The notes under the pieces were generated by a model, which saw nothing but the letters and a program-made list of their open reading frames with translations, searched no databases and had not been told where the DNA came from. A stretch of 7,578 nucleotides of DNA, taken from assembly GCA_016235915.1 (NCBI GenBank), contig JACRIC010000034.1, positions 1 through 7,578 on the forward strand, read 5' to 3'. The position numbers and the translations under genes are program-made. Below are positions 752 to 2,260 of the stretch, in pieces. The number at the start of each line of letters is the position of its first letter. Within the stretch, counting starts at the first letter, position 1. The stretch comes from Candidatus Peregrinibacteria bacterium (GTDB taxonomy: Bacteria; Patescibacteriota; Gracilibacteria; UBA1369; JACRIC01).

Positions 752-2260
752 ATGGAATTTTTAACCGCTAACACGGTCGTTCCTAAGGAACCTAATCAGA
801 AATCTTTTCAAGGAACAATCCGGACATTTTCTTATTTTCTGCTCTTTGCCTTCTTATTTCTGCTTCCCTTTCACGCATTTCTGGTGACATGGATGAGGGG
901 AATGGGACTTGATTCGATCTGGGTGACGCTGTGGAGGGAAATTATTCTGGGAATTTTGACGGTGCTGGCCGTTGCAAATGTCACATGGGGGCGACTTTTT
1001 GTTACCATGAAGCGCTCCGTTATCACCCTAAGCCACACTCCTGTCACCCTGAGCCTGTCGAAGGGTGAATCCGAATCTTGGCAAGTGCGGTTGAAAAAAA
1101 TTCGCCTGCTTGATTGGTTGATCGCGGCTTATTTTCTCCTCGGCGCGGTGTATTTTTTTTATAAAAGGGAAAGTATGGAACAATGGCTCCTCGGCGCGCG
1201 GTACGATTTTGAATTTTTATATTTTTATTTACTTGTTCGGATTTTCGCATTTGGCGAAAAAGAGATACGTGGATTTTTGAAAAGCGCGTTGTTCGCGGCC
1301 GTATTGGTTGTTATTTTTGGCTGGATTCTCAATTTTTTGCCGCAGAATTTCCTCACACAGTTTGGATATGCGCCATATGCGGATGAATGGAGTCAAAAAA
1401 CAGCAGTATTTGCATGTCATTATGTGGAATTTGACCAAAATTTCTGTCGAATGCAGTCCACATTCGGCGGTCCGGGACGGTATGGACTATATTTGTTGTT
1501 TGTGATCATCGCGAGTGGCGTCATGGCGAGGAGCGAGCGAGCGACGAAACAATCTCAACCTGTCTCCGCTTTTTGGCCACTTTTTTTCCTCTTAAGTCTC
1601 GGCGCCCTCTATCTCACACTTTCCCGTAGCGCATGGATCGGACTTTTTGGAGTAATCGGCATCGGCGTATTTTTCTTTATTAAAAATTTGTCCCAGTGGA
1701 AGCGCATTTTTTGGAAATCCGCACTCATTGCTCTTCCAGTCGCTCTCATTTTCACTTTTCTGTCCCCAATTTCTTTTGAGACGATTTTTCTTCGTCCCGC
1801 TTCAAGTTCCGCCCATTTTGAAGCATTGGCAAAAGGCATCCAAACAGTCATGGAAAATCCGTTCGGAATTGGTTTAGGAAAAGCAGGCCCGGCATCCATC
1901 CCTTTTGAAAAATTCCTCACGGAAAACGCTTATCTCCAAATCGCGGTGGAAATGGGTTGGCTGGGCGGCGTGCTGTTCCTCGCGATTCTTATTGTCATTC
2001 TGAGGGAAATCGCCTGTGGCGACCGACCAACTGCTTCTTCGATGTCATTCTCGAGCGAAAGGTTACCTCAAACGACCACTTCGGATCGGAAATCTCCCCA
2101 AATATTACACCACCCACTCGCCACGATCACCCTCCTCACCCTCATCGCCCTCATGATCTCTGGCCTGTTCGTCCACTCTTTTGAAGAAATGAGCTTAAAC
2201 CTGACATTGTTCGGATTTATAGGATTGTTATCATGTAAGTATCAGCACGCAAGTTTTTGA
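752..2260 (+). CDS. O-antigen ligase/polymerase family (Wzy_C) polytopic membrane protein
   Basis: The 502-residue protein has about 12 predicted membrane helices. Family landmarks are a large external loop (about 195-238) followed by FGGPGRYGLYLLF (238-250), LTLSRSAW (288-295) with the expected Arg at the helix edge, and a second large external loop with NPFGIGLGKAG (369-379) leading to ENAYLQIAVEMGW (391-403), the usual HN.YL...E.G motif with Glu in place of His. Wzy_C proteins transfer or polymerise undecaprenyl-linked glycans on the outer face of the membrane. Ligase and polymerase cannot be told apart here, and no glycan cluster adjoins. It is long for the family because three palindromic repeats sit in frame (residues 98-106, 256-268, about 415-449). 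Cys222 and Cys232 share one external loop. No Shine-Dalgarno precedes the ATG; a weak -10-like TATATC (738-743) would give a leaderless start. The 3' end overlaps murG by 30 bp. Confidence 0.85.
   Translation: MEFLTANTVVPKEPNQKSFQGTIRTFSYFLLFAFLFLLPFHAFLVTWMRGMGLDSIWVTLWREIILGILTVLAVANVTWGRLFVTMKRSVITLSHTPVTLSLSKGESESWQVRLKKIRLLDWLIAAYFLLGAVYFFYKRESMEQWLLGARYDFEFLYFYLLVRIFAFGEKEIRGFLKSALFAAVLVVIFGWILNFLPQNFLTQFGYAPYADEWSQKTAVFACHYVEFDQNFCRMQSTFGGPGRYGLYLLFVIIASGVMARSERATKQSQPVSAFWPLFFLLSLGALYLTLSRSAWIGLFGVIGIGVFFFIKNLSQWKRIFWKSALIALPVALIFTFLSPISFETIFLRPASSSAHFEALAKGIQTVMENPFGIGLGKAGPASIPFEKFLTENAYLQIAVEMGWLGGVLFLAILIVILREIACGDRPTASSMSFSSERLPQTTTSDRKSPQILHHPLATITLLTLIALMISGLFVHSFEEMSLNLTLFGFIGLLSCKYQHASF
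1043..1068 (+). repeat. Dispersed palindromic repeat of the CCCTGAGCCTGTCGAAGGG type, inside the ligase gene
   Basis: Arms TCACCCT (1044-1050) and AGGGTGA (1062-1068) flank GAGCCTGTCGA. This matches from memory a widespread intergenic palindrome in bacteria that is often mistranslated as VTLSLSKG. Here it is read in frame as residues 98-106 (VTLSLSKGE) in the loop after the second membrane helix. A partial copy of its left half, ATCACCCTAAGCC, lies just upstream (1022-1034). Confidence 0.8.
1519..1556 (+). repeat. Dispersed repeat of the CGTCATTGCGAGGAGCG...GCGACGAAGCAATCTC type, inside the ligase gene
   Basis: The stretch begins CGTCATGGCGAGGAGCG and ends GCGACGAAACAATCTC, a near match to a well-known dispersed bacterial repeat recalled from other genomes. 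It is translated in frame as residues 256-268 (GVMARSERATKQS), a hydrophilic basic peptide between two membrane helices, predicted to face the cytoplasm. Confidence 0.75.
1993..2098 (+). repeat. Composite degenerate repeat starting TGTCATTCTGAGGGA, inside the ligase gene
   Basis: Two copies of TGTCATTCT (1993-2001 and 2043-2051) each begin a repeat-like unit. The first continues GAGGGAAA and carries the perfect hairpin TCGCC-TGT-GGCGA (2010-2022). The second continues CGAGCGAAAGG and ends AATCTCC (2091-2097), the usual tail of GTCATTCTGAGCGAAGCGAAGAATCTC repeats. It is read in frame as about residues 415-449, a polar Ser/Thr/Arg-rich insert between membrane helices. Boundaries are approximate because the copies have decayed. 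Confidence 0.6.

Follow-up and report, generated by a model that had tools for sequence, protein, structure and literature searches.

Palindromic repeats that lie inside protein-coding genes have been described in several bacterial systems. Rickettsia palindromic elements (RPEs; Ogata et al. 2000, 2002, as described in reviews) comprise several families of palindromes found in frame in many unrelated, often conserved genes; one review gives 44 integrations in genes of R. conorii, and the element length is put at 105 to 146 bp or about 150 bp (PMC2229807, PMC10969869). CGTC/GTAG REPs have in-frame copies in DNA-repair and tRNA-synthetase genes; genes hit at two sites and different REPs at about one site in two recB genes, a precedent for a shared loop, are also reported, and the passages that name phyla with CGTC repeats do not include Patescibacteria (PMC3733652). 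REPIN doublets are reported, in an excerpt of PMC3116915, to have spread through extragenic space. ORF-bearing bacterial MITEs (the 107-bp form of Correia and RU-1 to RU-3) are, according to passages of PMC2229807 and PMC2759123, small inverted-repeat elements whose open frames are fused to genes.

Here we describe in-frame repeat copies in three predicted cytoplasmic loops of an O-antigen ligase from a Candidatus Peregrinibacteria bacterium, and we consider it likely (a probability of roughly 0.8) that the three families concerned have spread as small mobile elements that are non-autonomous and akin to REPs and REPINs. We infer that the units are mobile and are moved by a Y1-type enzyme, and that the resulting peptides are neutral and remain in the proteins. 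The kind of element is already known from RPEs, intragenic REPs and ORF-bearing MITEs (PMC2229807, PMC3733652, PMC10969869). Among the matches listed for open-licence PMC full text there was no earlier report from this lineage, and neither 27-nt modules that have an inverted partner nor the occupation of the same loop in two genera was found in print. A paper search with the letters of the repeats gave no repeat papers by title among the matches listed, and the main text of PMC12306157 contained none of the terms 'Patescibacteria', 'candidate phyla' and 'intragenic'.

Repeat units in an O-antigen ligase

The genome analysed comprised 683,189 bases in 120 contigs and was 80% complete. The window, by which we mean the whole stretch of 7,578 nucleotides under study, was one of these contigs (C113) and held the following features:

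321 to 485, no strand assigned: separate intergenic palindrome of 165 bp upstream of the ligase, with 25-nt arms that are 92% complementary; outside the three families
752 to 2260, + strand: O-antigen ligase (Wzy_C/WaaL-like) ORF of 502 aa, host of the repeats
1019 to 1041, + strand: degenerate upstream half of the family-1 composite ATCACCCTAAGCCACACTCC; from 1019 to 1068 (50 nt) the sequence is an 88% match to C32:1435-1484, which lies within MurC
1042 to 1068, + strand: family-1 unit of 27 nt, a hairpin, at site 1 (loop 75-118), translated (P)VTLSLSKGE
1519 to 1556, + strand: family-2 unit at site 2 (loop 260-270), translated VMARSERATKQS; profile E = 6.7e-9
1993 to 2025, + strand: unit A of the third repeat, at site 3; weak match to the family-B profile (E = 0.017), DNA matches at E 0.04 and 0.25
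2043 to 2095, + strand: unit B of the third repeat, at site 3 (loop 418-455); profile E = 1.1e-13, DNA matches at E 2.4e-4 and 0.003

The host ORF scored above the Pfam cut-off for Wzy_C and also showed the WaaL fold. It is 15% identical to the WaaL O-antigen ligase (7tpg), and three of its loops are longer than those of most homologues. Its orthologue (P0005) in G001, the sole genome of the same family among the relatives, is annotated as an O-antigen ligase family protein, and its neighbours in the window are ordinary (MurG-like, FtsW-like, signal peptidase II, shikimate dehydrogenase and an MscS-type channel). A reading made from the sequence alone had proposed that three repeat units lie within this ORF and leave its frame unbroken, and we confirmed this for the units at 1042-1068, 1519-1556 and 1993-2025 plus 2043-2095. 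Its placement of all three sites in cytoplasmic loops was borne out by topology prediction, and structure prediction modelled the inserts at pLDDT under 50.

At site 1, family 1 reads TGTCACCCTGAGCCTGTCGAAGGGTGA with 0 mismatches to the pattern. Across the 683 kb, 23 copies of family 1 were found at up to 3 mismatches versus 0 for the reversed pattern, and the 5' end of family 2 had 28 matches versus 1 for its reversed-pattern control; both families are high-copy. Unit B could be aligned with four other copies and stops right before a conserved QIL. The families are multi-copy, and the third unit resolved into two adjacent units, of which A is the weak match. A further family, family 4 (TGTCATGGTTCGAGAGCCTCACCATGA), had 13 copies in the stretches taken and 0 in its control; units of families 1 and 4 are both 27 nt long and have a common core, TGAGGCTCTCGAA, in opposite orientation.

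All three families had been called palindromic; by fold comparison this suits family 1, but not family 2 or the window copy of B. When single-strand DNA folds were compared with those of shuffled sequences, the window copy of family 1 (7-bp stem, 11-nt loop) reached z = -3.1; a stretch containing family 4 likewise folded better than shuffles, as did, at z = -5.1, a copy of B from elsewhere. The window copy of B did no better than shuffles (z = -0.8), and family 2 was a poor hairpin with no stable stem in the window copy (z = +1.8) or another copy (z = +1.6). Two further copies of family 2, at C65:8336-8390 and C111:743-800, contain an internal CCCTGAGC...GTCGAAGGG hairpin. Families 1, 2, 4 and B begin with TGTC, and the window copy of family 2 begins with CGTC, the terminal tag of CGTC REPs, which in these REPs has frequently become TGTC. 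The TGTC start, the short units, the many doublets and the in-frame intragenic copies are all reminiscent of CGTC/GTAG REPs; unlike these, the present units occupy three separate sites in one gene, and the copies folded here lack the CGTC REP stem of 8 to 9 bp that starts with A-T pairs and closes a loop of 4 to 5 nt. Family 2 was rejected as a CGTC REP on this stem.

Loop lengths were counted between fixed anchors in an alignment with 13 homologues, taken from the 18 that the listing gave at E <= 1e-20. Site 1 has 57 residues in the window ligase versus 26 to 28 in 11 of the 13 homologues (38 and 40 in the remaining two), and site 3 has 52 versus 20 to 31 in 11 of them (59 and 142 in the others). 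Site 2 has 39 residues versus 29 to 39 in 12 homologues and 52 in one; this equals the length in one homologue, is below that in another, and exceeds the four closest by only 4. The net gains are thus about 31, about 4 and at least 21 residues at sites 1, 2 and 3, and the idea of a foreign peptide absent from homologues held for sites 1 and 3 but hardly for site 2. Because the net gain there is only about 4 residues, the repeat at site 2 seems, from the alignment, to have replaced loop sequence rather than merely added to it. The large external loops had been described as clean and are indeed no longer than in homologues, at 32 residues (32 in 12 of 13) and 42 residues (42 in 10 of 13).

Host genes across the genome and its relatives

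Genes were called in 37 stretches, nearly all around hits, and in the window, together about a third of the genome. A simple codon model gave 205 genes (85% coding) with rough starts; the ligase, for example, was called from 902, the ORF starting at 752. Splitting the genome-wide count of families 1 and 2 by location, as had been suggested at the outset, placed 19 of 51 copies wholly inside called genes and in frame, 9 across gene ends and 23 in intergenic DNA; among the 19, the copy at C60:16127, with 3 mismatches, is probably a chance match. With four profiles applied at E <= 0.02, units were found in 24 of the 205 called genes (38 units, 28 sites), some of these units being weak or near a gene end. 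By Pfam and NCBIfam the hosts include MurC, a class IV aminotransferase, CoaBC, Tgt, MnmA, IleRS, RsmA, an ABC exporter, TilS, ValRS, a UvrD-nuclease, a radical SAM protein, TsaB, FemAB and pyruvate kinase; a unit confined to the C-terminus was seen in a P-type ATPase, RmlD and an ATP synthase subunit. Alignment with solved structures showed extra residues at the unit in seven of eight genes (Tgt, RsmA, CoaBC, the aminotransferase, ValRS, MurC and MnmA), and for the eighth, IleRS, the aligned structure has a loop of its own at that position. Tgt has 47 residues in the unit region versus 29 to 39 in 114 of 119 homologues and 43 to 61 in the other five. MurC (L126:886-2457:-, on C32) has units at two separate sites in one essential gene, a doublet near aa 308-340 and a second, degenerate family-1 unit, CHPKPVEGD, at aa 161-170.

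With multiple copies, in frame in unrelated genes, and residues absent from homologues, the analogy to RPEs drawn in the sequence-only reading is supported. As with RPEs, several families lie in frame in many unrelated genes; unlike RPEs, families 1 and 4 are 27 nt and families 2 and B about 30 to 60 nt long, and the lineage is different. A search of NCBIfam, a library that should include RPE models, with 12 proteins gave no RPE model and no repeat domain among the matches listed.

The gathering of three families in one gene had been thought unusual, which it is only mildly. Three sites in some gene arose in 16% of simulations (P = 0.16 for any gene), and we rejected the triple hit as remarkable by itself; the estimate is rough because the stretches had been chosen for holding copies. 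Three sites in the ligase specifically arose in 0.1% of simulations, a figure to be read knowing that the ligase was picked for its triple hit; with units in 24 called genes, the repeats are not peculiar to it.

Among the 99 genomes searched, family 1 was found in 6, including its own genome, and family 2 in 10, some with a single weak match. The motif as such is widespread: in the species-level collection, 35 stretches contain the exact 29-nt palindrome of family 1, and they come from Bacteroidetes, Nitrospinota, Alphaproteobacteria, Eremiobacterota, Patescibacteria and other groups. The relatives yielded 33 copies of family 1, 23 of them with loci, and 8 ORFs from these loci were scanned by Pfam. 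In two related genomes, G034 and G042, the copies are in frame and a Pfam family was found in all eight ORFs scanned, with the copy inside the domain in four (TsaD, QRPTase, a flavoprotein and iPGM), between domains in three (MutL, an aspartokinase-like protein and HisA-HisF) and before the domain in one. In the HisA-HisF case (L176:798-2294, G042) the two proteins form one open frame with the family-1 unit exactly at the joint (aa 234-243), and it looks as if an insertion had fused two neighbouring genes.

A different palindrome in the same ligase loop of a sister genus

The ligase orthologue of G001, from the sister genus, is the homologue with 142 residues at site 3. Its DNA there includes a 63-bp tandem repeat and a 164-bp palindrome with arms of 27 and 22 nt, the latter unrelated to the families of the window. 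The palindrome is high-copy in G001, with at least 74 rows when a palindrome is counted on both strands and 40 of 146 candidates are scored. We read 20 loci, at which 18 copies fit a strict pattern; 16 of the 18 are exactly 164 bp long, and a 4-bp duplication is perfect in 13 and has one mismatch in 5. In the ligase copy the duplication is AAAA. An element of 164 bp with its 4-bp duplication adds 168 nt, or 56 codons, and thus inserts without a frame shift. Another copy lies within a QueE gene. With inverted arms, a high copy number and a target-site duplication, the element qualifies as a MITE and has the form of the ORF-bearing MITEs; unlike those, its 4-bp duplication brings it to 168 nt net and leaves the frame unshifted.

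Like unit B in the window, the G001 element stops just before the conserved QIL motif. Since no family 1 (up to 3 mismatches) and no family 2 (up to 2 mismatches) was found in G001, which holds the 164-bp palindrome instead, two unrelated element types have, to judge by these sequences, taken one ligase loop in two genera. The third ligase loop is probably permissive, because the unrelated palindrome occupies it in the sister genus. The tandem repeat (L047:2457-2582, 2.1 copies) adjoins the palindrome, so two kinds of growth contributed to the G001 loop. One sense frame is open in most palindrome copies among those read (L186-L205) and gives a similar 54-residue peptide, GNPDKYAYYCKLQNS..., and several copies closely precede long ORFs, whose N-termini they may extend.

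The intergenic palindrome at 321-485 of the window is near the sister-genus element in size and different in sequence. In its own genome it matched only itself, and among 98 relatives it had one partial match (G039, 86% over about 50 nt); being single in the assembly, it was rejected as a family of this genome. The one Rfam match was to this palindrome (321-486) and fell short of the cut-off, scoring 26.4 bits where 144 are required (E 0.048).

Proposed spread of the units

Under the mobile-element reading, new copies would be inserted, possibly by a Y1/HUH-type transposase that acts on single strands, and most insertions into genes would be purged. Surviving in-gene copies would add a length divisible by three, leave the gene's frame free of stops and sit in a loop tolerant of extra residues. 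As such survivors would be frame-neutral, stop-free and in tolerant loops, no benefit to the protein would be needed, and the ligase would be a gene in which at least three insertions survived. The search of the genome itself for Y1_Tnp returned one fragment, which scored 23.2 bits and is truncated at a contig end; the 700 bases read beside it showed no unit. Families 1 and 4 form doublets (n = 10, spacers of 3 to 21 nt) that, like REPINs, consist of two related units inverted around a short spacer; unlike for REPINs, no RAYT is shown beside the units. The complete doublets inside genes are 75, 57 and 72 nt long, 3 of 3 being multiples of three versus 2 of 7 of the others, though these numbers are small. 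At C60:15123-15184 a family-1 unit is nested within a family-2 unit, an arrangement that fits insertion and may be read with or without a 5-base duplication.

Copies might instead have spread by recombination, gene conversion or slippage between existing copies. Composite units are common to different loci, units adjoin or nest within one another, and no consistent target-site duplication was seen for family 1, all of which would suit such exchange. Outside the unit, however, the unrelated host genes have no sequence in common that could guide recombination, and we regard this origin as unlikely.

Retention for usefulness, whether through hairpins formed in the mRNA or through a benefit of the peptides, seems to us improbable. 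It would accord with the folding of family 1, family 4 and one copy of B, and with the restriction of the ligase units to cytoplasmic loops. Against it, the window copies of family 2 and B do not fold, and the pattern fits purging; moreover, a single peptide function is hard to reconcile with units that appear in both orientations and in several frames across unrelated enzymes.

The sequence-only reading had also raised the prospect of a spread mechanism that favours coding DNA. That 38 units lie in 24 called genes, with in-gene copies in two related genomes too, might seem to point to repeats that seek out coding DNA, but their density inside genes is 0.10 to 0.13 of that outside, or 0.20 to 0.26 if only half of the frames are taken as open. 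We therefore see no preference for genes and rejected the claim that the repeats favour coding DNA, and we regard a coding-seeking mechanism as very improbable; the pattern fits insertion anywhere followed by loss of most in-gene hits. That the loop residues are native and resemble repeats by chance or composition is scarcely credible: although loop length does vary in the ligase family (at site 3, from 20 to 142 residues) and the match of unit A is weak, it is refuted for family 1, family 2 and unit B by a 27-nt copy that has no mismatch and belongs to a family with 23 copies and a control of zero, by the E of 1e-13 for unit B and by the same units across many unrelated genes.

If the mobile-element reading is true, mobile palindromes of the Rickettsia type inside genes extend to a Patescibacteria lineage with small genomes. 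The load looks comparable: about a third of the genome, selected around hits, yielded 38 units at 28 sites inside genes, and one review gives 44 RPE integrations in genes of R. conorii. The copies would amount to natural insertion data on which loops of basic enzymes such as ValRS, MurC, CoaBC and Tgt accept foreign peptide, and the two genera would offer a case of one loop taken by unrelated elements. More tentatively, in the small genomes of Patescibacteria, frame-neutral mobile palindromes (of 27 nt, or of 164 bp plus 4 bp) might continually supply proteins with new loops and even give rise to gene fusions.
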